From IMG/VR virus record IMGVR_UViG_3300024054_000008, positions 1 to 64,000 of that record: a DNA stretch of 64,000 nt; one strand, 5' to 3'. The position numbers and the translations under genes were made by a program. Positions 32,904-63,003 of this stretch are shown piece after piece; positions within the stretch are counted from its first letter, which is position 1; every line of letters begins with the position of its first letter. This DNA is from a virus. The notes beneath the pieces are model-generated. The model made no database searches. It saw only the letters and a program-made list of their open reading frames with translations, and had not been told where the DNA came from.

Positions 32904-34511
32904 TTATCGATACAAAACAAATTTCAATTTTGATTTAGTTGGCTTCTTCTCATAACCAAATTTCTCTGCGTATTCACGTTCTTTCATTTTCATTTTTTGA
33001 GCATGTTCGTAAAGAGTTTTTTTGTGAACGACATATCCTTCTGGACTAATATAAAAATAACTAACTGATGTTTCTTTTAAAAATTTCCAATTTGAAGCCT
33101 TATATATGGTTCCTGTATGGCCAAATGTTGGGTCTGCAAATGATATTATTACATCAATTGATTTAAATTCATCAAATAACAGTTTTGAACATCTGGATAA
33201 AAACCAGCTTGCAAAATTTTTCTTTTGATAATTTGGATGAATACAAAAACGATCAAGCTCAATAACTTTAGATGGGCTCAAATTCATAGAAGTTGCAACT
33301 TCTTTTCTGATAATTGGCGTAAATTTACACACCGCAATAAGATCTTTTTCAAGAAAAGCACCAACCACTAATTTTTCTTTCCTACCATATTGTGCGTAAT
33401 GAAACGAATTCAAAAAATCAACATACACATGGTTTTTTGAATTTCGATTTTTATCAATTTCATTGAACTTTCTAACTATAACATTTTCAAAATCAAACTT
33501 ATGTTGAATTTCATTAAAATCCTTTAATACAAATTTAGAAATCTTTTGTTTCACAATTTCTGGGTTAAAAAAATCTCGTTCATGAAGATACAAAATACGA
33601 AAATTTTGAAAATATTTATCAATGTACGAAAATTTTGAAGAGTCTCTTCTCATACCGTCAGGGGTATCATGCCAATATTCACCTTGAACCTCCACAAGCA
33701 CAGAATGGTCTGGAATAAAAAAATCAAAAAGATAATATCCAATTGCAAATTGTTGTTCAAATTTTAAATCTAAACTTTTTAAAATGTTGCCTGTAGCAAT
33801 CTCTATATTTGAACGATATCCATCAGTTGATACCTTCTGTACAGCTTTTAAACGTATGTGTTTAGCTTTCTCGCTTATTTCATAACACGAACGACATATA
33901 TACCGAAAAGATTCCGAAGATTTTCTCTTATGCCGTCTAATAGCATTTTTTAAAGAGTCAAATCTAATTATTATCTCATTATTACAACAAGAACAAACAA
34001 CTATTACTTTTTTACCTTTATCACGATACGAACCAAATTGTTGTAATGTTTTCTCTTGATTAATGGCAGAATCAATATCTGATTGCACTGGCATAGACCC
34101 GCCTGATTTACACTTTCTGCAAACGTATTTATAAATTAATCCATTTTTCTTATATTCCCATATTCTAAATTTTAGAGAACATATCTTTATACTATGGTAC
34201 GAATTGCACACAGAACATAAAACTACTACTAAACTATGTTTATTTTTTGGAGTGCCGTGAAGAAGTTTTGTTTTTTCAACAGAAACATGAGTTATTATTT
34301 CTGGATCTAATCGATTTTTGTTTTTTCTAGTGCAATAATTACATAGTATTATAGTATTATACCCATTACGACGAAGTCTAACTTTTAAAGAATTTAAGTT
34401 TATTACTGATTCACGCCCACAAGGACAATTGATAATTACTGGTGATTTGTTTTTAGGATTTCCATATACATCAATAGTTTTATTTTTGTCATAAAATTTA
34501 GACAAATCCAT
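32904..34511 (-). CDS. Zinc-ribbon / Vsr-like nuclease / Mom-like GNAT fusion (copy 3)
   Basis: 535 residues. N-terminal zinc modules: CPCGRE, CNYC, CSVC, CRKC, CSCC and CRSC pairs over ~210 residues. Nuclease core: LFDFFIPD, then LVEVQGEYWHD, SKFSYIDKYF and ILYLHERDF. GNAT-like end: FHYAQYG, VGAFLEKDLIAVCKF, VIELDRFCIHP, ASWFLSRCSKLL, VIISFADPTFGHTGTIYKASNW, then a basic KKTLYEHAQKMKMK helix. The second half is close to copy 5 (61144). A perfect -10-like TATAAT lies at -11 to -6 of the ATG, so it may have its own leaderless promoter. It sits downstream of the capsid genes' head block, before the capsid terminator-like hairpin. Confidence 0.75.
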   Translation of the reverse strand: MDLSKFYDKNKTIDVYGNPKNKSPVIINCPCGRESVINLNSLKVRLRRNGYNTIILCNYCTRKNKNRLDPEIITHVSVEKTKLLHGTPKNKHSLVVVLCSVCNSYHSIKICSLKFRIWEYKKNGLIYKYVCRKCKSGGSMPVQSDIDSAINQEKTLQQFGSYRDKGKKVIVVCSCCNNEIIIRFDSLKNAIRRHKRKSSESFRYICRSCYEISEKAKHIRLKAVQKVSTDGYRSNIEIATGNILKSLDLKFEQQFAIGYYLFDFFIPDHSVLVEVQGEYWHDTPDGMRRDSSKFSYIDKYFQNFRILYLHERDFFNPEIVKQKISKFVLKDFNEIQHKFDFENVIVRKFNEIDKNRNSKNHVYVDFLNSFHYAQYGRKEKLVVGAFLEKDLIAVCKFTPIIRKEVATSMNLSPSKVIELDRFCIHPNYQKKNFASWFLSRCSKLLFDEFKSIDVIISFADPTFGHTGTIYKASNWKFLKETSVSYFYISPEGYVVHKKTLYEHAQKMKMKEREYAEKFGYEKKPTKSKLKFVLYR

Positions 34512-35635: not shown

Positions 35636-35658
35636 CTTGCTATCCTCCTAAGCCTGAA

Positions 35659-36330: not shown

Positions 36331-36524
36331 TACTATCTCCCAGATCCCAAAAGACTTGCACTTAGCTTATCAAACTGTCTAAAGTTAAACGATTTCAGTC
36401 CACCATTGGCGCGAAACCATTATTTAACTTCATTCAATTCAACCGCTTCGTTTAAATCCTCCGAAATTTCAGGCCAGGTCTGCGTCTTTGTTTCCCAATA
36501 TCACCGGCAGCATGCCGGATAATC
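36331..36524 (-). promoter_or_regulatory. 194-bp leader upstream of the capsid pair
   Basis: No gene. It holds a small GC-rich hairpin (CCGGC 36504-36508 with GCCGG 36514-36518) just after the scaffold-like gene, a GGAGG-like site with no ORF after it, and an AT-rich stretch containing TTGAAT and TAAATAAT on the minus strand that could form a promoter. A separate promoter for the capsid pair is plausible but not shown. Confidence 0.3.
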
Positions 36525-37803: not shown

Positions 37804-40677
37804 TTAGTTTCCAATCGCCAGTGACGATATTTTACCCTTCCAAATGAAGAACCTTTCTTCATTTGGTGTTAGTTTTCGACCCAATTTGATGCTACATGCG
37901 GCCAGATATGACTGCTGACTTGGGTACAATTTCATTGGTCCAACAGCTAAAACTACTTTATAAAGACTTGATAAAGTAGAATTATCATGACCTAACCTAA
38001 TTCTATCTTCTACCCAAGATAGAAGAACCAAATCACGGCTATGCAAATGATTTGCTTTTATGGCACGCAAACCACCGTAATGAACAATTTTATAATTTTT
38101 CTCTGACCACTCAATCAATTTTTTGTTAGATCCGAATTGCTTTCGAAGCCCGTTTTTGAATTTCAAATATTTGTGATCTGCAGTTGAACCAAGCACCAAA
38201 TTATCATTGTAACCAGTAACACCGACAGGCTGCGTCGGACTTTCGGCATACCCAACATCTTCAGGTTTCGGACCAAATCTTTCTTTGATTCGGTTTGAAA
38301 GAGCCTCAACAATCGTTTCTTGTATGCTGTCTATTAATTTATCAATTTTTTCATCAACGGGAACTTCTTTTGATTCTTCTTTTTCCGGCTTTTCATCGGC
38401 CTTTTCATCAGCTGGCTTGTCAGCTTTATCAAATTCTGTCGGAGCTTCATCAGCTGGCTTATCTTCTGCCGGCTTCTCTTCAGGCTCCTGTGCAATTTTC
38501 ATTGAAGCTGCATGTTTGATACCATCAGGTAAAGGCTGAGACGATCTTACGTCATAAATTTGTTGAGATGCAGCAAATTGTGAATTTGGTACTAAAGTTG
38601 GATTCAAAAGATTGCGTTTAACAGCACCTTTGAAAGCCGGATTTTTAACCCAAGAAGCTTCAATAAATTGATTGCTCTTTGGTACAGAAACGTGACCAAT
38701 TAATTCAGAAATTTGATTCTCTGCGCCAGTATCATCAATAAATTTGTTACCTTTTCCTTCGTATAAAATGCAGGAGCAAAGATTACTATCGTCTGCAGCA
38801 ACATTCCCACACTTTGTACAAATGGTAAAAAGTGATATACAATTAGATACACCAATACCGTTTACGACATATGAATGATCATTATCAACTTGCATATCGT
38901 AAACAAACCCACGGTACTCAGTTTTATCGATTTTCTTTATACGCGAGAATAAATAACCACCAGCAATCCATCGATCTGAATTTCCTGATTTATATTGAAT
39001 TTCTGATTTATTTTTTTGGATTTTTACAGATGGAATTTTTACTGATCCGTCATTTCTAATTCTGATTTGATAATCAATACCGCTTGCATTTGGAAGTAAT
39101 TTAGTACCTTTTCTACGAATTGATGAGACAGTACTTATTATTCCACATCTAGCAAGTAGTAAGAAATACTGATTAGCTAAATTCCTATTACGAGTTGATA
39201 TGAAAACTTGTTTTGTGCCGTTTTTAGTCGTGCTAACACAACCGTCGGAATCAACAACTCCAGATAAAAATGCCAATTGATGATCAATCGGCCATGACAT
39301 GACATCCTGAGAAATCGATTTCTCAAGAGCCTTACGACCGTGCGTATAAGCGTCAATTAAATTCCGAACTGCATGACTAGAAGAAACAAGGTAATAAGCG
39401 TTCTTTCTTTGTTGGCAGGATACAGCTTTTGGTTCCTTGCGCGGATCTGATAAAAATGCTGTGCCTTTTTCTTTATAAGAATTTACCCAATTATAACCAG
39501 TTCTACGACTAACACCAGCACGTTTGCATAAACTGGCGAATGATTTATCATTCTCAGACCAAGCTGAAATGAATTGCGACCTACTAAAAAATTCACCATT
39601 TGCTACAACACGAGTTTCTTTAGACTTCCAAGAAATACGATCAATAATTGATGACATTTCCTTAGCTATGTCAGGATAGCTAACATCACAACATAAACCA
39701 ACCCCAATTGAAGAATCATGTTTATTTTCCCATTTCCAACCGTCACCAATCCAATAACCTAATAATCTAGCTTCTTCAAGTGTAACAGCAGGTTTGATGG
39801 TGTTGGTCGGGATTGGTGTAGCAATAATATCATTGATTTGAATCTTGTCAGCGTTTAATTTTTCAAAGTTATATGTAGTTTGTACAAATTTGTTGTTCTT
39901 ATAAATAACACTATCACGCGGAACAACATAAAAATCATGGTTGCTTGTAGCATTAACAACAGGAAGACCAACGGCTTTGATTTTATAAATCGACCAACGA
40001 TTTTCTCTGATTTGTAAATTGTTTACCCGACACACATTACCTTTTTGAGAAAGGACTTCCATATCAGGTCTGATATCTTCAATCGGTAGGACAGAACCGT
40101 CTCCTAAAGTAACCAAAGACCCTGGAACAAAACAGCCCATCGATTGAGCTGTTATTTCTTCAGATAAAATATCGTCAATTAATTTAGTGTGTTTTCTATC
40201 AGTTGCACAAAGAATGTCAATATAAACTGAATTGCCAACATCTCTTGCTATTGCATCAACAATGAATCCTTTTGACAACTCAGGGATCTGTATGTGCTCT
40301 AAATAAACGTTGGCACCTACAAAAGTTTTGTATGTTGCTAACAATAACGGACGCGCCCATCCGTCCATATTATTGTTCACGATGTTCAAACATTCAGGTT
40401 TAATTCTATAATCTGGATGTCTAACGTCAATCTCCATTCCTCTAACAAGTTGTTTGCCAAGTTTAACATTTTTAGGTTCATAAGTATCAACGGACGCAAC
40501 GATTGTGCTGTGTGATAATAAATATTGATTCGGGTTACATTTTCTCAATAAAGTCTTTGCAACTCTATTAGTATGATCTGACACTCCCTCATTGGGTCTG
40601 CGTAATTCCTCAACCCACTGGTCGTACTTTATATTTGGATTACATACCAAACTACTGGATGTTTTTCTAAACGCCAT
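37804..40677 (-). CDS. Prohead-protease-like protein interrupted by an intein
   Basis: 957 residues as translated, 526 after removal of a 431-residue intein (182-612). The N-extein has SHSTIVASVDTYEP, NNNMDGWARPLL, GANVYLEHIQIPELSKG and AIARDVGNSVYIDIL; spacing of His128 and Ser179 in QSMG resembles the catalytic His and Ser of HK97-type (U35) prohead proteases. After the intein come CTKCGNVAADDSNLCSC (a zinc-type Cys set), FIEASWVKNPAFKGAV, a Lys/Glu/Pro-rich linker and a helical C-terminus. It lies between the scaffold and portal regions, as expected for a head-maturation protease. The protease call rests on pattern, so moderate confidence. Confidence 0.6.
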   Translation of the reverse strand: MAFRKTSSSLVCNPNIKYDQWVEELRRPNEGVSDHTNRVAKTLLRKCNPNQYLLSHSTIVASVDTYEPKNVKLGKQLVRGMEIDVRHPDYRIKPECLNIVNNNMDGWARPLLLATYKTFVGANVYLEHIQIPELSKGFIVDAIARDVGNSVYIDILCATDRKHTKLIDDILSEEITAQSMGCFVPGSLVTLGDGSVLPIEDIRPDMEVLSQKGNVCRVNNLQIRENRWSIYKIKAVGLPVVNATSNHDFYVVPRDSVIYKNNKFVQTTYNFEKLNADKIQINDIIATPIPTNTIKPAVTLEEARLLGYWIGDGWKWENKHDSSIGVGLCCDVSYPDIAKEMSSIIDRISWKSKETRVVANGEFFSRSQFISAWSENDKSFASLCKRAGVSRRTGYNWVNSYKEKGTAFLSDPRKEPKAVSCQQRKNAYYLVSSSHAVRNLIDAYTHGRKALEKSISQDVMSWPIDHQLAFLSGVVDSDGCVSTTKNGTKQVFISTRNRNLANQYFLLLARCGIISTVSSIRRKGTKLLPNASGIDYQIRIRNDGSVKIPSVKIQKNKSEIQYKSGNSDRWIAGGYLFSRIKKIDKTEYRGFVYDMQVDNDHSYVVNGIGVSNCISLFTICTKCGNVAADDSNLCSCILYEGKGNKFIDDTGAENQISELIGHVSVPKSNQFIEASWVKNPAFKGAVKRNLLNPTLVPNSQFAASQQIYDVRSSQPLPDGIKHAASMKIAQEPEEKPAEDKPADEAPTEFDKADKPADEKADEKPEKEESKEVPVDEKIDKLIDSIQETIVEALSNRIKERFGPKPEDVGYAESPTQPVGVTGYNDNLVLGSTADHKYLKFKNGLRKQFGSNKKLIEWSEKNYKIVHYGGLRAIKANHLHSRDLVLLSWVEDRIRLGHDNSTLSSLYKVVLAVGPMKLYPSQQSYLAACSIKLGRKLTPNEERFFIWKGKISSLAIGN
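38842..40134 (-). mobile_element. Intein with LAGLIDADG endonuclease in the protease-like gene
   Basis: 431 residues. Begins Cys182 (CFVPGSLVTLGDGS, block A), has the TSNHDF block B-like segment, and ends HSYVVNGIGVSN before Cys as the +1 residue. Two endonuclease motifs are intact: LLGYWIGDG and LSGVVDSDG. The insertion lies three residues after the presumed catalytic Ser179. Protein splicing is required for a functional host protein. Terminal Ser-Asn instead of His-Asn is a permissible variant. Confidence 0.92.
39308..39325. repeat. Perfect 18-bp palindrome in intein DNA
   Basis: TGAGAAATCGATTTCTCA is a complete palindrome with no spacer. Confidence 0.95.
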
Positions 40678-40714
40678 AGTCTAAATTGACTTAATAATAA
40701 AGACCTGAAATAAA

Positions 40715-41458
40715 TCACTCAACAACTAAATCAGATGGTTTTATGCAAAATCCACATGCCTTACATTGTAATAACCTAGCTCCATGTTTATATGTTCTGG
40801 GCTTCAAAAAAGTTTTGCATCTTGGACATGATAATTTTCCACTTGATCTTTCACGCTTTGTAACTTTATACTTTCTGTTACCATCTTTCCAATAAAGCGC
40901 AATCCTTCTTCCAAGTTCATATAAATTTGATATCGTTATCCTTATAGCTTCTGACCCATGTTGATCTGAAAATAATGAACTCAAACGACGAAATGCGTCT
41001 ATTTCAGTTTCACCTGTATGCCATGCTTTGCAGGCTTGCCTCCAAACCGGCATAGTCCGTTTTTCATATCTACGAACAGCACGTTCTAAAATAGTTTCAG
41101 ACGATGCCGATTTTAATAATTTCTTTCTCCATTTTTCATCAAGTTTCAAAGTTTCTTCGTCATTGGTATGACGACTCTGGTCCAGTGATGAATAACTTTG
41201 ATCAACCCAAAGCATTGGTAATTTATCAGTCCTATCAGGATGGACTTTTACAAGCTCAGTCGGGGTCTCTTCTTCAATACCCCACGGCCACTGGACCTTG
41301 ACTCGACCAGTATCAGGATTAGATACAATAACACGGCCCAAATATGGAGTGAGGAAGAAATCGTGCAACCCGCCACGTTGCACCATATCCCCAGAATTAA
41401 ATTCCAAGGCCATTAGCTGATTATCTATATACGCAATTCTTTTATTATGTTCAGACAT
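40715..41458 (-). CDS. Protein with SH3-like N-terminus and C-terminal zinc ribbon
   Basis: 247 residues. Residues ~20-75 (GDMVQRGGLHDFFLTPYLG, RVKVQWPWG) suggest a KOW/SH3-like barrel. A helical middle with basic Arg-rich patches follows, and the last ~40 residues form a ribbon CPRC...CKACGFC. It lies between the nuclease copy 4 and the protease-like gene within the head block. Possibly a head-assembly or nucleic-acid-binding protein; no family recognised. Confidence 0.5.
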   Translation of the reverse strand: MSEHNKRIAYIDNQLMALEFNSGDMVQRGGLHDFFLTPYLGRVIVSNPDTGRVKVQWPWGIEEETPTELVKVHPDRTDKLPMLWVDQSYSSLDQSRHTNDEETLKLDEKWRKKLLKSASSETILERAVRRYEKRTMPVWRQACKAWHTGETEIDAFRRLSSLFSDQHGSEAIRITISNLYELGRRIALYWKDGNRKYKVTKRERSSGKLSCPRCKTFLKPRTYKHGARLLQCKACGFCIKPSDLVVE

Positions 41459-41484
41459 GGCTTAAATCAATTTCCATAATCTAT

Positions 41485-43008
41485 TTAAGATTTATATATC
41501 CAAAGTTTCTTACCAAGATCCCAAATTTTTCTACCATTTTGTTCATCAAATTTCAGTCTTTTCTGACCATTCACGACCCAATAGACAGGTTCAATGTTAT
41601 TAGCAAATTTAAATCCTAATTTTTGAAAAATTGACCCATCATCAATTCTGTTATCAGAATATGCATACACAAATTTTGGACAATAACTAATAACAAATTG
41701 ACTCAGAATTTTCTCTAAACCACCACAAACTTCGAATTTATTGTTAGTTGATATGGAAAGACACCAAGAATTTTGTTCTATATCAAACTCATAGAACGAA
41801 ACACACATGACTAACAAATTATTATAATAAATGCCATAATTTACATCAGTCCCATTGGTTTTGTCATAACAAAATTCTTTATAAAAAGAATTTGCCGTAT
41901 CCTTTGAAATCAAATTTATATGGTAATTATGTATCAGTTGTTCGATGTGTAATTTACCAATGATCAAATTTTTTATTTGTTTATGTTTACCAACCCATTC
42001 ATCCTCAAAAATCATTAGGTAATTAAATCCGCTTGATTTGGCCATTTCATATTTAGCAAGATCATATTTTTTAGAATTTGTTTGTGAATGCCATCGAAGT
42101 CCATTATATTCGATAAGTAAATTGTTAACCGGAACGAAAATATCGTATGTAAAATTATTAATCTTATATTCAAGCACTGGATCAACATCAAAAGAATTAA
42201 TAAAATTGAACAAGGATTGTTGTTGCCCAGAAATTTTATTATAAGAACACCCACATGTTATTGAAATTCCACGACGAATATCATTCCATCTTGGTTTATA
42301 CTTAGAATTGCAAGCATTACATACGGCCAGAAATGGCCTCATAGTTGATTTGATAGGTTCAAGAACTTCAATAAATTCTTTTATATCATCAGGAAAAATT
42401 GGAAATTTCAACGAATGTATTAATTTTTTGTTTATTTCGTATTTTTTCCATGCATTTTGATAACACTTACCACAAGTTTTTGTATCGCCACGTGTAACAC
42501 TCGAAACTGTAATACATTTTTTACCACCACAGCTACACAGCCAATTTACTTTTGAATGTGAATTTTTATGTATATCAATCGGGTTTTCTATACGAAGACG
42601 TCCGAAAGTAATAGATGATAAATAATCTTTGGACAAGACATGACACTTACCACAAGTTTTCTGGCGTTTAGAAGTAACATTTATGATATTTGCAAAAGTA
42701 TGATCACCGCAATCACAGTCCCATTTTATTTTCTTATTTGATTTAAGATGATAATCGGATGGTTCAGACATCCGAAGTGATCCAAATTTAGTTTGCTCCC
42801 AAAACAGTTTTGGGAGCACATTGCATTCACCGCAAGTTTTCTGACCACCAACTACTCTATAAACTTTTATATATTTTTCTTTGCCACAATCACAAACCCA
42901 AATTACCCCTTTATTCGATCCAGAATGAATCGGGATCGGGGTTTTCATCCTTAATGACCCAAATTTTCTTTCCCAAAACTGGGCGGGTTTCAAATTTCTA
43001 TTTATCAA
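41485..43008 (-). CDS. Zinc-ribbon repeat / Vsr-like nuclease / GNAT-like fusion (copy 4)
   Basis: 507 residues from TTG 43008, overlapping the upstream stop as TTGA. Three ~61-residue modules, each FGSLRM-type start, SNK or SHS, C-D/S-CG, then CGEC or CGKC, match those of copy 1; a CNAC/CGC ribbon follows. Nuclease core: TYDIFVPV, LLIEYNGLRWHS, then MIFEDEW. The GNAT-like end is more degraded than in the other copies (YGIYYNNLLVMCVSF, YAYSDNR, IFQKLGF). It is inserted in the head operon between two structural-type genes. Putative free-standing homing endonuclease. Confidence 0.72.
   Translation of the reverse strand: MINRNLKPAQFWERKFGSLRMKTPIPIHSGSNKGVIWVCDCGKEKYIKVYRVVGGQKTCGECNVLPKLFWEQTKFGSLRMSEPSDYHLKSNKKIKWDCDCGDHTFANIINVTSKRQKTCGKCHVLSKDYLSSITFGRLRIENPIDIHKNSHSKVNWLCSCGGKKCITVSSVTRGDTKTCGKCYQNAWKKYEINKKLIHSLKFPIFPDDIKEFIEVLEPIKSTMRPFLAVCNACNSKYKPRWNDIRRGISITCGCSYNKISGQQQSLFNFINSFDVDPVLEYKINNFTYDIFVPVNNLLIEYNGLRWHSQTNSKKYDLAKYEMAKSSGFNYLMIFEDEWVGKHKQIKNLIIGKLHIEQLIHNYHINLISKDTANSFYKEFCYDKTNGTDVNYGIYYNNLLVMCVSFYEFDIEQNSWCLSISTNNKFEVCGGLEKILSQFVISYCPKFVYAYSDNRIDDGSIFQKLGFKFANNIEPVYWVVNGQKRLKFDEQNGRKIWDLGKKLWIYKS
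42794..42818. repeat. Perfect 12-bp inverted repeat in nuclease coding DNA
   Basis: Arms 42794-42805 and 42807-42818 (TGCTCCCAAAAC / GTTTTGGGAGCA) flank a single base; sterically a 3-nt loop with 11 bp is expected. Confidence 0.95.
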
Positions 43009-43469
43009 CCCCAGGCTGTGCTCTTACCAGCCGGACCTTTTGACCAAGACGGCTGTTTCTTTGTGCCGCTAGACCATTCACTTTCTTCACGAACCGTATA
43101 TTCATCACGCTCAGTAACCTGAGAAGTATCATCAGAATCGTAAGTCGGAACTCCCTTGCCGTGGAAAGTCGGACCGGTGTGGTGCATATAAGGTTCGTCA
43201 GATTCGCCCTCAATAACTTTCTGCGGATTTTCAAAAGTTTTCATGTAGGATTCATCAGAATCCTGTTCAATAACTTTAGCCTGACGTTTTCTAAACGATT
43301 CTTCACCAAAAACTTCGGCTTCAAGTTTATCGGAGAACGAATCTATATTCTTAATAATTGAAGCTGTAACCTCAGTTTTTGGAAGCTTTTTTTCCTCAAC
43401 TAGAGCTTCAATATTGCTAGCAATATTCTCCAAAGTCGAGAGTACGTGACTGGCAACCCGCTTGTCCAT
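43005..43469 (-). CDS. Small head-region protein, unrecognised
   Basis: 154 residues from ATG 43469, chosen for GGAG nine bases upstream; ATGs at 43475 and 43520 are alternatives. The N-terminus (MDKRVASHVLSTLENIASNIEALV) is a charged helix with IAS-type motifs, followed by a polar, probably disordered C-terminus rich in Ser, Asp, Glu and Tyr with repeated DESYM and DEPYM pieces. Likely an internal or assembly protein of the head. Function unknown. Confidence 0.5.
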   Translation of the reverse strand: MDKRVASHVLSTLENIASNIEALVEEKKLPKTEVTASIIKNIDSFSDKLEAEVFGEESFRKRQAKVIEQDSDESYMKTFENPQKVIEGESDEPYMHHTGPTFHGKGVPTYDSDDTSQVTERDEYTVREESEWSSGTKKQPSWSKGPAGKSTAWG

Positions 43470-43536
43470 ATTCATAATCTCCGTTCTTTTCGGATAGAGC
43501 ATAGAAGCCCCAACATTCAAATCATTTCTTGACTAC

Positions 43537-46068
43537 TCACCAATTCATATCATCCTTAGTAATTGATGCTTTTTTTACTTTAGGTGGCTTTATTTTTGGT
43601 TTTGATTTCTCTGGTTTTTTCTCAACTTCTTTTTCTTTTTTCACTGGTGGTACCGGCTTATCTTTTTTTACTTTTTTAGAAGTCTTCTTCGGCTTCTTTT
43701 TGGAAGCAACGAACAATAACGGAAGCAACGCAGTTTTAACATGTTCATTCTTACTAGCTACACGAGCAAGAACGTTGGCGTTTACATACGTGTTAGATGC
43801 CATCTTGTTAACAATTATTTCAATTGTGTCCAAATGTTTAGAAGAGGCCCAATGGTTTTCAGCTCTTAAAGCAATAAGAGCATCATTAATTTGCTGAACA
43901 AACAAATCTGCATACATAGAGGCGGTTTTCTTTTTAATCATATCGCCCATCTCTTGGAAAGCCTCAACAAAGGCATCAACATCAAGATCCTTCAGAGCTT
44001 TATCAAACTCATCAGAAATTTTCTTAGCGTCAGTGAAAACTTCTTTTAATTCATCAACACTAAGATCAGCTAAAGATTTTGTCTCTAAAATTTCCAAACC
44101 ACCAGTCATGGTTTGCGAAGTTTGGGCCCCACCGCCACCTTCAACAGTCATAGGCATTGGAGGAACAGCCTCCATATCAGTCTTCATTGGGTCACTGGCT
44201 TTATCAGTAACAGAAGCTAATCTAGATGAAATTTTTTTAATGGTCTTTCCCATCTCTTGGAAAGCCTCAACAAACGCCTCTATATCCTCATTATCTAAAG
44301 CTTTTTTAAGCTCCTGCTGACGCTTTTCAAGTTCCTTTGTATCTAACTCAGGGTTATCTTGAGCTATTCGCATAGAATCACTTTGAGCCATTATACTACG
44401 TAAACTTTGAATTAATTTTATTGACTCAGCTGGATTTGAATGTTGCAAATCACTAGCTAACCTAAGGATATTACCTATACTTTCGCGCTTTGTCATTGAC
44501 GCCTTCTTGCTTTTATTTGAGTGCATGGTCTCAGTAAACAAATCTATGTCATCACCTGATAAACGATTCAGAAGCATGTTATAGGTTTCAACGTCTATTT
44601 TATTTTGATACAAATTATCATCAGCCAAATGTATAGCGACATCTAACGCTGCTCTAATTGGCGCGTCAGGCGACCCACTACCCCATCCGTTTTTGAACCA
44701 ATTTTCTTTCAATAAATCTTTTGCAAATGATAGTATTGATTTGTAATTATCAGATGTTAAATATCTCTTATCTAGAGATTTCCATCCGGTATTTGTTGGT
44801 CCACTTGGGTGGCCTTGCTGGATATGACCATGAAATGTCGCAGTCTTATTCATATATTTATGTGTACATTGCTTATTAGAGGCTGCTCGTTTAAATCCCT
44901 TAAATATTGCGGATAATTCGGATGGTATATTATCATATTTATTTTTCATAGAACTTTCAAATTCATCCATCAATTCATTTAATTCGAATGAATAAGGTTT
45001 ATTCTTACTTTCAATCATGTTTTCAATGCCCCTTAGGGCAGAATCATACCCCTTAGCAAATGTCCATTTCTCACCAGGCTTAATTTCACCAAGTTGCTCA
45101 ACAGATTTTTCCCAAACGTCCATAAAAATTTCTATTTCTTTAAGCTTAGTCAATTCTTTGTAAGTTCGATCAACTGCATCATTTATAGCAGTTGCAATTT
45201 TATTAAAACTTGGTTCATGTGGCATTTTTTCAAGAATGTCATGAATTACAACTAACGCAGCATGTTTAGTAGCAGTTCTGTTATCGATTCTAGATAATGA
45301 TTTCTTACCCATTCCATCTAAAATCTTCTTTAAAAATTTCCTCTCTTCTATTTCCTCAGTTGGTTTTGATTCAAGAACTAATGACAAATATTCAGGCAAT
45401 CCTTTTAGATTTGAAAATTTGTTTTTAGCGCCGTCAACAGCGCGTAAAATAGCTGATTTTTTGCCCCAATTTCCACCACCAAGTGGCCATATAGATTTAA
45501 TTATCCCATAAATTTCTTCAGCGTCCTTAGCAGACACAAGTTTAGTCTCTGTGTCTTTTACAACTTTATCGCTATTTTCATTTACTTCAGAATTAATTTT
45601 TGATTGTGATAGATTATTTTCTTTAGCGTATTTAACAAAATCGTCGCGCAAAATTTTATTAAACTTGTCTATGTCTTTTGGAAATACAATTTCTGGTTTT
45701 TTTGTCTGTTTTTCTTTTGGCTCTTCGGATTTTGGACCAGACTTTGGAAATCCTTTCATTTTTTCTAATTTTTCAAGCATAAGCTCTCTTTGGCTTTTTA
45801 CCTCCTTAGGTTTTTCAGGACTTTCTTGTGCTAAGAAGACACGAAGAGCAATATCAGCTAAAGTTGACCCACCAATATTCTTGTAATTCATTGATAAATC
45901 AGGATCTGATTTTTTTAAATCAGCATCATCAGTCTTCATTCGCTGTCTTCTATTATCTCTTTTTGGCCCTTTTTTAGGTTTATATTTCCTGCTACGTGGA
46001 GGCTTGCCCCTTTCCAAGAGCCGCTCAACTTCACGCTCTTCTTTTTTAGAAGGAGACAACTCAGGCAT
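43537..46068 (-). CDS. Large helical protein with strongly basic ends
   Basis: 843 residues, unrecognised. The N-terminus (1-50) is Lys/Arg-rich, and the C-terminal ~55 residues are a Lys-Pro tail (KKKPKKTSKKVKK, repeated VKKEKE) resembling histone-H1-like tails. The middle is helical, with a repeated ~27-residue unit containing AFVEAFQEMG (two copies), and a TSQTMT motif shared with the scaffold-like protein. Position directly after the portal gene suggests an internal head protein that could bind packaged DNA. Inference only. Confidence 0.55.
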   Translation of the reverse strand: MPELSPSKKEEREVERLLERGKPPRSRKYKPKKGPKRDNRRQRMKTDDADLKKSDPDLSMNYKNIGGSTLADIALRVFLAQESPEKPKEVKSQRELMLEKLEKMKGFPKSGPKSEEPKEKQTKKPEIVFPKDIDKFNKILRDDFVKYAKENNLSQSKINSEVNENSDKVVKDTETKLVSAKDAEEIYGIIKSIWPLGGGNWGKKSAILRAVDGAKNKFSNLKGLPEYLSLVLESKPTEEIEERKFLKKILDGMGKKSLSRIDNRTATKHAALVVIHDILEKMPHEPSFNKIATAINDAVDRTYKELTKLKEIEIFMDVWEKSVEQLGEIKPGEKWTFAKGYDSALRGIENMIESKNKPYSFELNELMDEFESSMKNKYDNIPSELSAIFKGFKRAASNKQCTHKYMNKTATFHGHIQQGHPSGPTNTGWKSLDKRYLTSDNYKSILSFAKDLLKENWFKNGWGSGSPDAPIRAALDVAIHLADDNLYQNKIDVETYNMLLNRLSGDDIDLFTETMHSNKSKKASMTKRESIGNILRLASDLQHSNPAESIKLIQSLRSIMAQSDSMRIAQDNPELDTKELEKRQQELKKALDNEDIEAFVEAFQEMGKTIKKISSRLASVTDKASDPMKTDMEAVPPMPMTVEGGGGAQTSQTMTGGLEILETKSLADLSVDELKEVFTDAKKISDEFDKALKDLDVDAFVEAFQEMGDMIKKKTASMYADLFVQQINDALIALRAENHWASSKHLDTIEIIVNKMASNTYVNANVLARVASKNEHVKTALLPLLFVASKKKPKKTSKKVKKDKPVPPVKKEKEVEKKPEKSKPKIKPPKVKKASITKDDMNW

Positions 46069-46097
46069 TTACATAAACTCTATAAAATAAATTTAAA

Positions 46098-49000
46098 TTA
46101 TTCTCCGAACCTATCACCACCATCTTTACCAGTCTTAGTAAGACCCATATTCTTAATTAAACGATCGACAACATCAGTCTTCTCAACTATAGAGGTTGCA
46201 GCTTCTTCGAGAATCTTCCTTATAACCTCATTGAAAACAGCATCCTTCGGTGTGAACATATCTGATTTCAATCTAGCATGCACATCATCAGTGTCTATGT
46301 TAATCAACTCAAGTATGTAATCAATCGGCAATGAACCCTTCTGGTATAGATTAAACATGAAATCTTGAAGTTCCGTGTTGTCACGCAGTGCTAGCCTGGT
46401 AAACTGAAGTTTTGGAAACAATAAAATTCTGTTGCCGAATTCGTCTGTCTCATAGAATCCTTTTTTATGGGCAACTGGAGCAAACAAATATTGTTCAACA
46501 TACTCAGCTAAACTTTCTCTGTATAACAAATACATAGTATTCATAACATCAAGATGAATCCGCTCACCAGCATATGTAGATTCACCAGTCAACATTGGCT
46601 CTGTAACTCTGAGACCAATAAATAATCGTTTATTTGTTATTTCATACTCAGAACTCAAATCCAGCAAACGATCGCGCGATCCAATTTCATCCCAATGAAC
46701 TTCAAAGTTTGTAACAATTGAAAAGTCAGGATCAATCAAAGCCTGGTCCACTTGATCACGTAAATCATCAGTATCAATAGTGCTCATTTTATCAGCCCAA
46801 ACAACACGCTTTGGGGTCATAGCACGAGATGCGATGCTGGTCTGTGCTTGTCGAAGTTTATCTGAGAAAATAAGGTCGTGTAGACAGTTTTTAGTTAGTG
46901 AAAAACCAGCAAAGAATGTGTGGTCAACCTCAACATTCAAGCTAAAAACATCCCCAGAGAAACGGTCTGACAATACTTCTTTTACTTTATAATATGTGTT
47001 ACCACACCAGTTCTTCGATTTTATATCCAAAGAAATGACGCATGGCGGGTCAACATTAAATTTAGACAATTTTGGTGTAAATCCAGATGATTTTATTGAT
47101 GCAACATCATTTCTAATTGAAAAATTCAACGTGTGTAATGGTTTTGGATTTTTACAATATGTGCCATTTGCTTGACGAACTGGTTTAGTTTTTGTTCTTA
47201 TTTTATAACTTGGTGATAGACCAAGCCCGGTGCACATTATGAATAATTGTTGTACCAAATTTTTGGTTGTTACAGATATATTTATGGTATTACTATTGTA
47301 CTTCCCTTTTGATACAGAGCCATCTGAATCAATTAACCCCCTAAGTATGCCAAATTTGAATGATTCAGGAGTCTCATTTATCCATTCTGGCAAACATTTA
47401 TCATTTTTATTATGTCCAAAACTTCTACCGATCCAACGGCTAAACCAGTCATCATGGAAATGCATCCACCCAAGTTCATAGTTGTGACAAGAAATGTTAA
47501 GACCTAAATTTTCTGCTATGTTAAAAATATGTTCAGCTGATTTTTGACTATTTTCAGAATCTTGTTGCCAACATATTCCGCTAGGACCATATTTAGTAGC
47601 AGATGGCTTACTTGTTTCTGTCCAACCATCGCCCAAATAATATCCAACCAAATATCCAAGATCACCATTCAGGTCTAACCATCTTGGGCAGATTTTGTTA
47701 ACACGGATTTCATATAAAATAGAAGGATCAACATGGGCAGGCCTAAACAATCTAGCTATTGGTTTGTATTTAAGATCTGATTTTATGCAAGGGATTGCAT
47801 ACCCAAGACTTTCAAGATCGCTTATAATGGATTTGTATACAGAGTCATCTGATAAATCAAATTTGCTTATAAATGCTGATGAGGTTATCTCAATTGGAGC
47901 TTCAAGATTCTTTATCCAATCACATATTTCATACAATCTTTCTTTACGAGATATTCGTTGTGGATTTTTATCGTTAAACAAATAGTGCAAAACTAAAGTA
48001 TCATCGCCAGATTCTTCAACATTAATAAATAACGGTAAATCAATCTGAGAACGACGACAACGGAATACCCATTCTTCTTCCTGGAAAAAAGTAAACAAAT
48101 CAAACTTGTTTAATAACTTTTCGGATTTAACAGAAACAACCTTTAAATAATCTCCGGGCATAACATCAATTGCTTCTGTGTCAATTAATTCATCTTGACG
48201 CAAAATTTGTAATTTATGGTCTGATGTAGACCAAATTGTACTTGGAAGTTTATGAACGTTAAGACCAGTTATTTTCCCATCGTATGAACGCTGGCCGCAT
48301 TGAAATTTCCTCCAATGTCCAGATCCGCCAAGCACTTCATCCGTTTCCGGATTAAGTTTTTCTATTGGAACCTGCAAAATTTGACCGTTTCTGCGCGCCG
48401 TGACCTCGGTCCCTGGTAGATGACATCTTTCTATTAAAGAAACACCACGATCATCATATGCTGACTTTTTATGCGCTAAGTGATAAACAAAAGATGAGCA
48501 TAAATAATCATCATATGGACTTGTATTAAGTGGTATTGGTTTGCCAGATTCAAGATTTTCGCGTATCTGTTCTGGTATATCTTCAGCTATTCTGACAGCG
48601 TCTTCGTCACCATCTTGCATAGCCTTCATAACGACAAGTCTATCTTTATCAGACGGAATTAAATCAATTTTAACTTTGTCTGTGTATTGAAAAACTTCGA
48701 GTCTGATTTGTTCTGGTGGTAAAATCCTAAGTCTTTGCCATCCTTGGTAATTTTTTATAACGTATTCTTTTATTGTTGCTATTTGTTCTTCAGCTGATTT
48801 TTCAACATATGTTTTTTCTTTGCGAGTTTGTAGAATGCCTTGCTCATCAATTTCACCAATCTCTTCTTCAACTTCATTTAATAATAATTCATCTGGTATT
48901 TCAATATCATGATCTTCAGCAAATATATAACAGTTATGAGTTGATATGAAACCAGCTTGATAGGTATGATCATCTTCAACTTCAAAATTATATACAATAT

Positions 49001-51845
49001 CACTCTGATCAGTAGTTACTGACTCAATTTTGAAACAAATTGAGTCACCAATCTTTATGAAATCTTCTACGCCATTTGGGTTTACAGTATATTGATGTCT
49101 ATTAAAATACCAGTCCCTTTTTAAACTCGGTATTTTTCCAAGCCTGAAAAATATGTCTCTGGCTAATATTGCTGAATTACGTTTATTAAACGCAAATCCA
49201 TTGTTAGTTTTATTGCAAGCGTCAATCATCCCTTGCAATACAAATTTTTGTTTTGCAATTGGAAGCACAACAATCCATTCTGGCACAGAATTTGACAAAT
49301 TTTTTAAAGCCCAATCCACAAAAATTGGGTTTTTATTTGTGTCTATATACACATTTAAATAATTTGATACAACACAATCACCAAATATCTCAGTAAGAAT
49401 ATTGTTTAAATTATTAGAAGAATTTTCATCAACACATTTTATTTCAAAGTAATTGATACCACCACGTTTAACTATTCGACCAGATGAAAGCCAATAGCCT
49501 ATAACATACAAAAGCTTATCATTCACATTGAGTGAATGCGGAAAATTAATAAATGTACCATTTGATTTAACACAATCAAACCATTCGGCCGGAATCTTAT
49601 CCAAAGGATTCCATACAGTCTTTGATCCTTGACTACCCTTAATAGACTCCTTTACGTATAAAGGAACACCAACTTCTTTAGATAGGCCGGCAATTATACT
49701 TGTTATTGTATGCAACCCAACTTTAAATTCTTTAGCAAATTCTCCACACGATTTTATGGCGGGCCCAGTCAATGATAAAACAAACCCGATTATCTTTGAT
49801 CGAATTTCGTCATTACTAATTTTATTATTTGATTTCTTTCTACGTATAGAATATCCGAAACCAGCTTGTGTGTATTTATCATTATCAATTAATTTTATTG
49901 TGTCTATGTCTATAAACTCAGTTGGCCAAGTAACACGAACATAATCATTAGAATTTAGGCTTTCGGAGTCTACAAATACAAATTCATTGTTCCTGTAAAC
50001 CTCAATCGGATGATTAAAAAACCCAACTGAATCGGGAAGTCCATTTATTTTTATATTAGATATAAATTTTGATTCTCTTGAAAATACAGCCTTAACTCTT
50101 TTGAATCTTCCTTCGTTAGTCAAAAGTCTGTCGTTTACACTTATATTTTTTGCTTGTTTAACACCATTAGATGTTCTTATAAGAGTCGATTTGCTACAAC
50201 ACATACCTTGCAACCAATATTCATGTGTAGCATCATAAAGAGTCTGGAATAGCTTTATTCTAGTACACATTTGTTCAAAAAAATGGAGTATTTGTCGATT
50301 TCGTACCTGGTCTTTTCCTTTTGGCAAGGAAAGACGAATTTTGCTCATTGGTACGTCAGTATTATGAGTCGCTAATCCATAAGCTACATAACTTTTTCTC
50401 TTTCCTTCGCCATCAACTTCAATGTTATACACGGAACCAGTATATTGAATGGCTTCGGCCTTTTCTATTTTCCTTAATGTATTAGAACCAATCCGAACAC
50501 AATATTCACGAGTTGTGTTAGCACTATAGTTACCACGCACAAAATTAGCATATTTTGAGAATTCGGTATAAAAACGATACGGAATTATTATACGATAAGT
50601 TGGTCCGTTTGACTTAAAACCAGTGTTATACTGTTTTGGTTCACTAGAATGAAGTGTTGGGGCAAATCCGACCTTTAAAGCTAAAGCATAAATTTGATGA
50701 GCCAACTGCTTTGACACTGTAGTAGCAACATACCCATTTTTAGTAAGACTTCCATCTCCATTCCAATATGCACCTAAAAACTCAAGTATGTCTTCCCTTG
50801 GTGAGTCAATTATGTCTTGGCTCAATTTCTTATTATGCGATCCACTTCCAACATGTTTAAAACAAAACTCTGCAAAATCATTCTTGTAACATCTAATTTC
50901 ACATGCATTGCAATCCTTCCTAATGTATTTCCGTGAACGATGATTATACTCAACATCAAACATTTCAGTGATTTCATTTGCAATAGTATCGAATTCATTG
51001 ATGTTTAAAGTAAATACAACCCTATCAAGTTTTCCATATTCCGTGCGCGATAATGAACCCTCAGCTGCATAATAACCAAGCAATCGCAGTTGTGCTATAC
51101 TAAAAACAGACTTAGAACTGACCATAGATGGCGAACATATATAATCACCAATCTTTAAATCTTTTGCAAACACAAATTGTGGTTCACCTATACCAAATCC
51201 TGAACATCGGTTCTGTTTACAAACAAATTTTGTACCGCTCTTACAAACTCCAACATTTTGTTTATGAAATTTGCAATCAACTTGTTCAGCACGATAAACC
51301 AAAAACGGATGATTTCCAGTACAATCAATGTTACCCTGAATACCACGAACCTTTAAACGAATTACTTCATCACATATATCATGTTTAAAAGTACGAACAA
51401 CTTTTGTTGATTCACCTAATCCGTTTATTACTTCATCACCCACATTTAATGATTCTATGGGATTGACTGACCCATCTTTCATCATAACTGGGGCGCCAGG
51501 CGGGAAACAATGAAAATCTATGGCGGCACCAACTATTGGGTGCTTTGTGTACCAAAATCTAAATAGCTCCCTTTTTTCACGTTCAGACTGTGGTTGCTCA
51601 AGAAAATCTGTAGAAAGCTGAGGGCTGTAAAACGAAAAATCGGCGCTTTTAATATTGGCATTATTAATATTAGAGAATCCACCAGTATTAGAAAAAGAAG
51701 CAACACGAATTGATTGAGCTGCTTCTCTTCTGGCTTGCTTTTCAAGACGAGTCAATCTGTTCTTAGGCACAGATTGACTATCGACTCTAATAATCTTTTT
51801 TCCACCGTTCGCGTTTGGTTTAACACCAAGTTTCTTGCCAGGCAT
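46098..51845 (-). CDS. Portal protein carrying three inteins
   Basis: 1915 residues as translated; removal of inteins at 113-495, 549-971 and 1141-1653 leaves 596 residues, a normal portal length. Extein segments fit a myophage-type portal: ELFRFWYTKHPIVGAAIDFH, then PMSKIRLSLPKG, EYWLQGM, an acidic clip-like region, RILPPEQI, SPYDDYLCSSFVYHLAHKK, then LHDLIFSDKLRQAQTS with KRVVWADKMST, IVTNFEVHWDEIG and GLRVTEPMLTGEST. The portal dodecamer forms the DNA entry vertex of the head. It sits just downstream of the terminase, as usual. All three inteins must be spliced for virion assembly. An IRVAS motif occurs at 46-50. Confidence 0.9.
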   Translation of the reverse strand: MPGKKLGVKPNANGGKKIIRVDSQSVPKNRLTRLEKQARREAAQSIRVASFSNTGGFSNINNANIKSADFSFYSPQLSTDFLEQPQSEREKRELFRFWYTKHPIVGAAIDFHCFPPGAPVMMKDGSVNPIESLNVGDEVINGLGESTKVVRTFKHDICDEVIRLKVRGIQGNIDCTGNHPFLVYRAEQVDCKFHKQNVGVCKSGTKFVCKQNRCSGFGIGEPQFVFAKDLKIGDYICSPSMVSSKSVFSIAQLRLLGYYAAEGSLSRTEYGKLDRVVFTLNINEFDTIANEITEMFDVEYNHRSRKYIRKDCNACEIRCYKNDFAEFCFKHVGSGSHNKKLSQDIIDSPREDILEFLGAYWNGDGSLTKNGYVATTVSKQLAHQIYALALKVGFAPTLHSSEPKQYNTGFKSNGPTYRIIIPYRFYTEFSKYANFVRGNYSANTTREYCVRIGSNTLRKIEKAEAIQYTGSVYNIEVDGEGKRKSYVAYGLATHNTDVPMSKIRLSLPKGKDQVRNRQILHFFEQMCTRIKLFQTLYDATHEYWLQGMCCSKSTLIRTSNGVKQAKNISVNDRLLTNEGRFKRVKAVFSRESKFISNIKINGLPDSVGFFNHPIEVYRNNEFVFVDSESLNSNDYVRVTWPTEFIDIDTIKLIDNDKYTQAGFGYSIRRKKSNNKISNDEIRSKIIGFVLSLTGPAIKSCGEFAKEFKVGLHTITSIIAGLSKEVGVPLYVKESIKGSQGSKTVWNPLDKIPAEWFDCVKSNGTFINFPHSLNVNDKLLYVIGYWLSSGRIVKRGGINYFEIKCVDENSSNNLNNILTEIFGDCVVSNYLNVYIDTNKNPIFVDWALKNLSNSVPEWIVVLPIAKQKFVLQGMIDACNKTNNGFAFNKRNSAILARDIFFRLGKIPSLKRDWYFNRHQYTVNPNGVEDFIKIGDSICFKIESVTTDQSDIVYNFEVEDDHTYQAGFISTHNCYIFAEDHDIEIPDELLLNEVEEEIGEIDEQGILQTRKEKTYVEKSAEEQIATIKEYVIKNYQGWQRLRILPPEQIRLEVFQYTDKVKIDLIPSDKDRLVVMKAMQDGDEDAVRIAEDIPEQIRENLESGKPIPLNTSPYDDYLCSSFVYHLAHKKSAYDDRGVSLIERCHLPGTEVTARRNGQILQVPIEKLNPETDEVLGGSGHWRKFQCGQRSYDGKITGLNVHKLPSTIWSTSDHKLQILRQDELIDTEAIDVMPGDYLKVVSVKSEKLLNKFDLFTFFQEEEWVFRCRRSQIDLPLFINVEESGDDTLVLHYLFNDKNPQRISRKERLYEICDWIKNLEAPIEITSSAFISKFDLSDDSVYKSIISDLESLGYAIPCIKSDLKYKPIARLFRPAHVDPSILYEIRVNKICPRWLDLNGDLGYLVGYYLGDGWTETSKPSATKYGPSGICWQQDSENSQKSAEHIFNIAENLGLNISCHNYELGWMHFHDDWFSRWIGRSFGHNKNDKCLPEWINETPESFKFGILRGLIDSDGSVSKGKYNSNTINISVTTKNLVQQLFIMCTGLGLSPSYKIRTKTKPVRQANGTYCKNPKPLHTLNFSIRNDVASIKSSGFTPKLSKFNVDPPCVISLDIKSKNWCGNTYYKVKEVLSDRFSGDVFSLNVEVDHTFFAGFSLTKNCLHDLIFSDKLRQAQTSIASRAMTPKRVVWADKMSTIDTDDLRDQVDQALIDPDFSIVTNFEVHWDEIGSRDRLLDLSSEYEITNKRLFIGLRVTEPMLTGESTYAGERIHLDVMNTMYLLYRESLAEYVEQYLFAPVAHKKGFYETDEFGNRILLFPKLQFTRLALRDNTELQDFMFNLYQKGSLPIDYILELINIDTDDVHARLKSDMFTPKDAVFNEVIRKILEEAATSIVEKTDVVDRLIKNMGLTKTGKDGGDRFGE
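46887..48425 (-). mobile_element. Portal intein 3 (513 residues, LAGLIDADG)
   Basis: Begins Cys1141 (CHLPGTEVTARRNG), has the STSDHKL block B, and ends GFSLTKN before Cys, with Lys replacing the usual penultimate His. Endonuclease motifs LVGYYLGDG and LRGLIDSDG are intact. A longer middle carries a winged-helix-like insert. The Lys-Asn end may slow or alter Asn cyclisation. Confidence 0.92.
48933..50201 (-). mobile_element. Portal intein 2 (423 residues, degenerate endonuclease)
   Basis: Begins Cys549 (CCSKSTLIRTSNG; the alignment of residue 8 and Gly13 with the other inteins puts the junction at the first Cys). Ends AGFISTHN before Cys. The LAGLIDADG motifs are decayed to VIGYWLSSG and LQGMIDACN, losing the catalytic acids, so cleavage activity is probably lost while splicing motifs remain. 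Confidence 0.9.
49020..49047. repeat. Perfect 11-bp inverted repeat in intein 2 DNA
   Basis: Arms 49020-49030 and 49037-49047 (TGACTCAATTT / AAATTGAGTCA) with a 6-nt loop. Confidence 0.95.
50361..51509 (-). mobile_element. Portal intein 1 (383 residues, LAGLIDADG)
   Basis: Begins Cys113 (CFPPGAPVMMKDGS), contains the TGNHPF block B, and ends YGLATHN before Thr as +1. Endonuclease motifs LLGYYAAEG and LGAYWNGDG are present, with acidic residues in both, so it is probably active. An inserted Cys-rich stretch (CKFHKQNVGVCKSG, CKQNRC) may bind zinc. Confidence 0.93.
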
Positions 51846-61143: not shown

Positions 61144-63003
61144 TCAATCACGAGTCAACACAAACTTTGTTTTTGATTTGCCAAACACCTTCATATACCC
61201 AAATTGATTAACATAATCGGATTCTGATTTTCCCATCTTTTGAGCATGATCATACAATGTTTTTTTATGTATAACAAATCCTTCTTGACTAATATAGTGA
61301 TAATCAGGTTTTGTAACATGTAGCTGTTTCCAATTTGAAGCTTTATAGATTGTACCAAAATGACCAAAGGTTGAATCTGCAAAACTGACAAGAACCAATA
61401 ATTTAGAATTTTCAGAAAATATTAGTTTAGAACACCGCGATATGAACCAAGACGCAAAATTCTTTTTTTGATATTGAGGGTGTATACAAAATCTATCCAA
61501 TTCCAACATTTGACTGAAAGCATAATTCATTGAAGTCGCTACTTCTTTTCTAACCGGTGATGCAAATTTACAAACTCCAATCAATTTTTCATCAAGAAAA
61601 GCCCCATACACAACTTTAGCTGTTCTACCATATCCAGCATAATGGAATGACTGCAAAAATTCTTCAGGAGCAGAATAATAAGAATTGGGTTCTAATTTTT
61701 TCGGATTTAATTTATTAATTCGAACCTGATCAAAAGAAAAGTCACACTGTTCAATCTGGGAGCTGTTATCAAACAATTCTTTGGTTAATTTTTGTTTGAT
61801 TAGGCCAGGATTTAAAAAATCACGCTCCCACAAATACAAAATACGATAATCAGGAAAATATTTGTCTATATATGAAAATTTTGATGCATCATCCGATTTT
61901 CGTATAGAATGCCAATACTCACCATTACATTCTACCAATAAATTATGATCAGGAACATAAAGATCAAACTCAAAATAACCAATAACATGATGTCTAACAA
62001 ATTTAATATCAAGTGATTCTAATAATTGTTGAGCAACTCTTTCAAGGATACTATCTTTACCATTGAATAAAATTGATGAACGTGCTTTCGCCATCTTTTC
62101 TTTAAAAACGGGGTCACTCCACCTACTCTTAAAAAACTCAGATACTCTAATTTTGTGTTTTGGATCTGAATAGGTTTCCTTGATTTTAGCAGTTATATCA
62201 GAACGAATCTTTTGATTTTTCCATTGATTCTTGGCATTTTCTGATTTGAGAATACATAAATTCTTATCAGAAGCCGCCTTTAGTTGTTTTTCTATGTATA
62301 TCGGATCTTTCCACAATTTTTTTACATTATCTGACACCAATTTTCTTAATTCAACATTAGACCAAACCAATTTTTGCGATTTAATAATCAAATTTCTATA
62401 TTCTAAATTTTTCCAACGCTCAATGGCTAAATCAGATTGCAAATATCTATATTCACTAGTGGATTTAAATAATCTTTGTTTTTCAACATATTCTTCATTT
62501 TTGTGTAATTTACGGATCTTTTCACGTTGAAGTTCTACATTTTTTGGATCAGACCAATATTTAACGTATTTATTTCTATATATTGGATCTTTCCATAGAT
62601 TAGAAGTCGTTATTGATGCTTGTCGTCTTTTACTTGTATCTTTCCAAACTTCACTCAAAGTTGTCCTGAGTTTTTGGACCGATTCTGGGTTTGACCATCG
62701 TTCTTTTGAAATTTCAGACTGTTTCTTTCTTTTGTCGTCAGACCAAGATTTAATAATTCCGTGTTTATGTCTTTCTTGATAAATTTTATCAGTGTGCTTT
62801 GATTTTATCCCACAGGATAAACACCTATAATGTCCAACTCTCTTAATAGTTCTTAAGATTGAGGAAATCTTTAATTTTAATTTGGTTCCACAAGAACATC
62901 TTATTACTATTTGGGATTTTCTAGATATTTTGATTATATCAGTTAAAGAATCAATATCAACAATATGCGCTGGTATGCCAATCTGTTCTAATTGTTGCAA
63001 CAT
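61144..63003 (-). CDS. W-[KS]-[DN]-P repeat / Vsr-like nuclease / Mom-like GNAT fusion (copy 5)
   Basis: 619 residues. A short Cys-pair zinc motif near the start (CSCG, then CLSCG) precedes about eleven ~17-residue helical repeats each opening with W-K/S-D/N (KRWSNPESV, LWKDPIYRN, YWSDPKNVE and so on), like the DNA-binding repeats of some homing nucleases. Nuclease core: FDLYVPD, LVECNGEYWHS, SKFSYIDKYF, ILYLWERDF. GNAT-like end: FHYAGYG, YGAFLDEKLIGVCKF, LELDRFCIHP, ASWFISRCSKL, VSFADSTFGHFGTIYKASNW and a basic KKTLYDHAQKMG helix. The second half is close to copy 3. It sits between the sigma-like regulator and the SGNH gene. Confidence 0.75.
   Translation of the reverse strand: MLQQLEQIGIPAHIVDIDSLTDIIKISRKSQIVIRCSCGTKLKLKISSILRTIKRVGHYRCLSCGIKSKHTDKIYQERHKHGIIKSWSDDKRKKQSEISKERWSNPESVQKLRTTLSEVWKDTSKRRQASITTSNLWKDPIYRNKYVKYWSDPKNVELQREKIRKLHKNEEYVEKQRLFKSTSEYRYLQSDLAIERWKNLEYRNLIIKSQKLVWSNVELRKLVSDNVKKLWKDPIYIEKQLKAASDKNLCILKSENAKNQWKNQKIRSDITAKIKETYSDPKHKIRVSEFFKSRWSDPVFKEKMAKARSSILFNGKDSILERVAQQLLESLDIKFVRHHVIGYFEFDLYVPDHNLLVECNGEYWHSIRKSDDASKFSYIDKYFPDYRILYLWERDFLNPGLIKQKLTKELFDNSSQIEQCDFSFDQVRINKLNPKKLEPNSYYSAPEEFLQSFHYAGYGRTAKVVYGAFLDEKLIGVCKFASPVRKEVATSMNYAFSQMLELDRFCIHPQYQKKNFASWFISRCSKLIFSENSKLLVLVSFADSTFGHFGTIYKASNWKQLHVTKPDYHYISQEGFVIHKKTLYDHAQKMGKSESDYVNQFGYMKVFGKSKTKFVLTRD

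Follow-up and report, generated by a model that had tools for sequence, protein, structure and literature searches.

Inteins inside a phage portal gene have been described in mycobacteriophages of cluster C1, for which one survey counts six portal (PORT) inteins and presents phages as intein reservoirs (Kelley et al. 2016, PMC5050341). Heavy interruption of core genes is also known from other large phages, namely the crAss-like zeta and Jug phages, where most of the interruptions are group I introns and a crAss zeta genome is reported to hold up to three inteins (PMC7886860, PMC12363816). The stretch of DNA analyzed here, hereafter called the window, comprises positions 1–64,000 of the virus record IMGVR_UViG_3300024054_000008 (whole record 182,739 bases). 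It resembles both systems in carrying inteins in a portal gene and in coming from a large phage with heavily interrupted core genes. In contrast to the crAss-like zeta and Jug phages, the window yielded no introns, and its inteins cluster in two head genes, which encode the portal and a prohead protease-like protein (Table 1). The original prediction had described these two genes as adjacent, but they lie approximately 5.4 kb and four ORFs apart.

Table 1 Features of the window discussed in the text (positions refer to the window; slashes mark extein junctions).
Feature	Position	Strand	Description
Second free-standing homing-endonuclease/Mom-like gene	32904..34511	-	Adjoins the major head protein gene
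Prohead (head maturation) protease-like gene	37804..40677	-	957 codons; 526 aa spliced
I4	38842..40134	-	431 aa; protease site P3 (QSMG/CISLF, +1 Cys); motifs intact (GYWIGDG, GVVDSDG); ends SN
Insert in I4	39430..39573	-	~48 codons; transposase-like helix-turn-helix (HTH_28); absent from seven other I4 alleles
Protease Ser179 codon	40141..40143	-	SMGC motif; invariant; candidate catalytic Ser; 3 residues before I4 junction
Protease His128 codon	40294..40296	-	EH motif; invariant; candidate catalytic His
Free-standing homing-endonuclease-like gene	41485..43008	-	phrog_559 (E 3e-51), phrog_3339 (E 4e-36); separates two ORFs that are neighbors in relatives
Portal protein gene	46098..51845	-	1915 codons; 596 aa without its three inteins
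I3	46887..48425	-	513 aa; portal site D (SLIER/CLHDL, +1 Cys); motifs intact (GYYLGDG, GLIDSDG); ends KN
I2	48933..50201	-	423 aa; portal site C (YWLQGM/CYIF, +1 Cys); C-terminal HN kept
I2 second LAGLIDADG motif	49212..49232	-	Degenerate, GMIDACN
I2 first LAGLIDADG motif	49479..49499	-	Degenerate, GYWLSSG
I2 block B	50010..50021	-	FFNH in place of TxxH
I1	50361..51509	-	383 aa; portal site B (AAIDFH/TDVPM, +1 Thr); LAGLIDADG motifs intact (GYYAAEG, YWNGDG)
Empty site A, +1 residue	51543..51545	-	Portal codon 101; Lys (AAG) here, mostly Thr in relatives
Third homing-endonuclease-like gene	61144..63003	-	55% identical to the gene at 32904 over the C-terminal part

The portal gene, which adjoins the terminase gene, matched the portal family phrog_16240 (E = 5e-13) and also gp14 of Bacillus phage G and the Tunturi_5 portal. 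The predicted fold of the intein-free portal homologue on contig L104 (pLDDT 66) matched the portals of T4, G20C, and lambda; this model had 53 PDB matches at E ≤ 0.001, and the best 50 of the 53 were portal, neck, or connector entries. By homology and modeled fold, the gene product is a tailed-phage portal. The protease ORF matched phrog_18299 (E = 2e-5) and head maturation protease families. For the intein-free homologue on contig L118, a model of moderate confidence (pLDDT 76) had T4 gp21 (5jbl) as its best PDB match (probability 0.99, E = 1.5e-3), and one His and one Ser were invariant across 27 homologues. Fold and invariant residues point to a T4 gp21-like prohead protease, for which proteolytic activity is predicted. 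A search with the spliced portal found no relative among genome contigs, and therefore no host is proposed.

Relatives were collected by a terminase search, which yielded 78 related contigs, and by a spliced-portal search, which yielded 45. Computed removal of the three portal inserts left the 596 residues expected for the spliced form, and residues 1–596 formed a single unbroken tblastn match to the intein-free contigs L004, L008, L030, L040, and L069; identity to intein-free homologues was 67–72%. Residues 1–523 of the spliced protease aligned at about 47–51% to L003, L004, L010, L019, and L032. The insertion-site motifs AAIDFHTDVP, EYWLxGNVF, LERCLRTL, and SMGCIS are uninterrupted in intein-free relatives, and hence the inserts are real and the predicted junctions (51509/50361, 50201/48933, 48425/46887, and 40134/38842) are correct to the residue. 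The intein-free homologues thus bear out three inteins in the portal ORF and one in the protease ORF, and the inserted segments were absent from homologues at all four sites. Insert sequence accounts for 69% of the portal ORF and 45% of the protease ORF; for the two ORFs combined the share is 61%, in agreement with the earlier estimate of more than half.

All four inserts start with the block A Cys and end with Asn, followed by a +1 Thr (I1) or Cys (I2, I3, and I4), as had been predicted. The accompanying claim of a block B Thr-x-x-His in every insert held for I1 (TGNH), I3 (TSDH), and I4 (TSNH), but not for I2, which has kept the His and lost the Thr. The penultimate residue is His in I1 and I2 only, and Lys and Ser in I3 and I4, respectively. 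Pfam matches to LAGLIDADG_3 and Intein_splicing back I1, I3, and I4, and homology extends to the solved inteins PI-PkoII and PI-SceI. Judged by these motifs and matches, the four inserts are class-1 LAGLIDADG-type inteins, and self-splicing is predicted for them. The helix-turn-helix insert in I4 suggests a possible change in DNA recognition.

I2 stands apart from the other three. Both of its LAGLIDADG motifs have lost the catalytic acidic residue, and Pfam found no LAGLIDADG domain in it even at E = 1 and Intein_splicing only below the threshold (E = 0.0028). The allele at the same site in the related contig L122 keeps TTDDH, GYWLGDG, and GLIDSDG. When I2 alone was used as the query, no relatives were found; the allele at its site surfaced through the portal search (L122) and later in the distant portals of L148 and L151. 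Because I2 has an altered block B, dead motifs, and no Pfam LAGLIDADG domain, while the L122 allele is intact, we read its sequence as that of an intein relative whose endonuclease region has decayed. I2 is probably immobile, and its splicing could be slow or fail because the block B Thr is missing.

Intein occupancy was compared across a close set of 34 portals differing by more than 1%, the window included. Inteins were present in 12 of these portals and absent from 22. They occupy four sites, located after residues 100 (A), 112 (B), 165 (C), and 334 (D) of the portal. Four of the intein-bearing portals hold B, four hold A and D, and one each holds A; B and D; B, C, and D (the window); and all four sites. 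The last of these, in contig L122 (L122:1887-8951), is a gene of 2354 codons and the most intein-rich portal found. The original prediction that three inteins in one portal gene are rare was fair, but the case is not unique, since the L122 portal has four and a distant portal, in contig L160, also has three. In L122, only 12 host residues separate the inteins at A and B. The A and B inteins form sister families (support 100/99) and are about 46% identical; comparison of their sequences suggests that one of the two probably arose from the other by local transposition. The +1 residue of the empty site A in the window is Lys, so that this site cannot currently hold an intein requiring Thr, Ser, or Cys at +1 in this genome. 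Mutual exclusion of sites A and B was unsupported (Fisher p = 1.0; both held by 1 of the 34 portals). The co-occurrence of A and D gave p = 0.0004 with a statistic that ignores shared ancestry and is not claimed here.

The protease genes of close relatives have three intein sites, P1 (NNN/SD), P2 (NY/CEH), and P3 (SMG/C), the last of which holds I4. P2 precedes the invariant His by two residues, and P3 follows the invariant Ser by three. The protease sites are among the most conserved junctions of the protein (p = 0.003) and the portal sites are weakly more conserved than random (p = 0.056), with sites C and P2 scored 1–2 residues off in this test, which does not affect the reading of P3 and D.

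Allelic inteins were found at matching sites in other contigs. Within the close group, each of the seven site groups forms a single clade (site A weakly, 71/67), and with distant phages added two or more invasions are required for the SMG/C site and likewise for site A. When occupancy is mapped onto the extein tree of the portals, sites A, B, C, and D require 5, 6, 2, and 5 changes for 6, 7, 2, and 7 occupied genes, respectively; the portal sites thus turned over, by gain or loss, almost every time. Clear recent transfer was seen for one pair only, at the I4 site of two relatives and outside the window: the P3 inteins of contigs L097 and L123 share 95.4% DNA identity, while their host genes share 71%, and the identity breaks 6 bp upstream and 4 bp downstream of the junctions. 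This pattern marks a recent horizontal transfer, of the kind that homing gives; the clean edges fit homing with little co-conversion, although other recombination is also possible. The inteins at sites C and D, which are homologous to each other along their whole length, are more diverged than their exteins, a pattern unlike recent homing. The first ~42 residues of the site D inteins (48300–48425 here) are 69–88% identical, compared with 33–61% for the whole inteins. Recent recombination as the source of this conserved start was ruled out by its saturated third codon positions.

That the locus is a hotspot of homing elements, as initially proposed, agrees with the relatives, which hold differing subsets of inteins at the same and at extra sites of both genes, and in which the ORFs split by the nuclease gene at 41485–43008 adjoin each other. 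Two further homing-endonuclease-like genes lie in the window (Table 1). A profile search with the A and B inteins led to distant inteins (64 distinct ORFs, 18 of them in genes without assigned identity), which again are often located in portal and protease genes. Among them are the distant portal of L160 (L160:2458-7326, 1623 aa), whose third intein is a 210-aa mini-intein without an endonuclease-sized insert, and a protease-like ORF with three inteins (L157:6633-11093, 1487 aa). The L148 and L151 portals have inteins at sites A and C, with the A-site junction of L151 shifted by about two residues. A 2306-aa ORF (L169:1156-8073) combines a protease-like part with an intein close to its start. 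In the genome of the window, a B12-type ribonucleotide reductase (L130:1691-5707, at about 78–82 kb of the record) houses a fifth intein; this intein (STNP/C...) apparently ends in Gln rather than Asn.

Several other observations concern neighboring genes. The terminase genes of L044, L045, L055, L056, L057, and L073 appear interrupted, with matches about 0.7–1.2 kb over the expected length. The major head protein region at 34748–36500 has mostly 52–57% G+C in a window of 37% G+C, and the MCP genes of relatives have 52–59% in loci of 40 to 53%; the high G+C content of head protein genes may reflect host-codon matching. A gene for an RtcB-like RNA ligase is located near the head genes at 30592–31803.

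We consider it very likely that these elements are selfish class-1 inteins which recurrently home into conserved sites of the head genes. Each intein would be synthesized as part of the portal or protease polypeptide and then remove itself, leaving a portal of 596 aa and a protease of 526 aa; we infer splicing of all four from their intact chemistry residues and the clean junctions in homologues. During co-infection, the intein endonuclease would cleave the uninvaded allele in a related phage, and a copy of the intein would be inserted there, the transfer itself having been seen for the one pair of relatives. The portal and protease genes would be hit repeatedly because their sites are conserved and only exact deletion restores an essential gene. 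Of the four inteins, I1, I3, and I4 appear to be mobile, and the persistence of I2 probably reflects only the continuing need of the portal to be spliced.

Alternatively, the inteins could be domesticated, with splicing acting as a timing switch that keeps the protease (and the portal) inactive until conditions or concentration permit assembly. We regard this as unlikely. The location of two of the three protease sites beside the invariant His and Ser and the invasion of the Ser site at least twice independently would fit such a role, but conserved active-site motifs are also the usual targets of selfish inteins. The same role could account for the retention of I2 despite its dead endonuclease and for the conserved start of the site D inteins with its saturated third codon positions. 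Nevertheless, the 22 intein-free portals of the close set indicate that no intein is required, and changes of occupancy are nearly as numerous as the occupied genes. Because most relatives carry no inteins, a regulatory role is possible but doubtful. Slightly less likely still is the proposal that splicing of the inteins at the catalytic center of head proteases and in portals of large phages was co-opted to gate capsid assembly or maturation, in which case the repeated invasion of the Ser site would reflect selection for the gate, beyond conserved DNA. It is very improbable that the inserts are genuine extra domains of the portal and protease or an assembly artefact. Phage proteins can gain domains, and the intein profile scores of I2 are weak, but many independent contigs share the junctions with or without inserts, the allelic inserts differ by 30–65% in protein sequence and thus are not copies of one artefact, and the intein-free homologues refute both possibilities. 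Group I introns or other RNA-level elements, frequent as such introns are in core genes of large phages (crAss-like, Jug; PMC7886860, PMC12363816), have next to no likelihood here and are refuted by the protein evidence, as the inserts are fully in frame with a Cys start, an Asn end, and Hint/LAGLIDADG domains, and no Rfam family matched in the window.

These results present the head-assembly genes of large phages as a natural hotspot for inteins. Portal genes with zero to four inteins make up an allelic series that is useful for testing how neighboring inteins coexist, compete, and decay. The inteins also account for the tendency of automatic annotation to miss or split such portal and protease genes. 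Both multi-intein genes and portal inteins were already known; a literature search confined largely to papers available without subscription gave no report of several inteins per portal, of an intein in the active site of a prohead protease, or of portal/protease clustering. Compared with the C1 phages, for which the accessible survey text reports no gene with several inteins (PMC5050341), the richest portal genes of the close set hold three to four, and the protease is invaded as well. Four inteins in one gene, as in the L122 portal, are described for Trichodesmium RIR1 in the title of Liu et al. 2003 (cited in PMC4649490), but RIR1 is a cellular ribonucleotide reductase that also carries group II introns. 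The haloarchaeal MCM inteins a–d share with the portal inteins four close sites in one gene, patchy presence, horizontal transfer, and neighbors that each have an endonuclease of their own (PMC10643990). However, MCM is a cellular helicase, whereas in this phage clade a distance of 12 residues separates the nearest sites, A and B, and the inteins they hold are sisters. The L122 pair is a natural case for the question, raised by the haloarchaeal system, of how neighboring inteins affect each other's homing.
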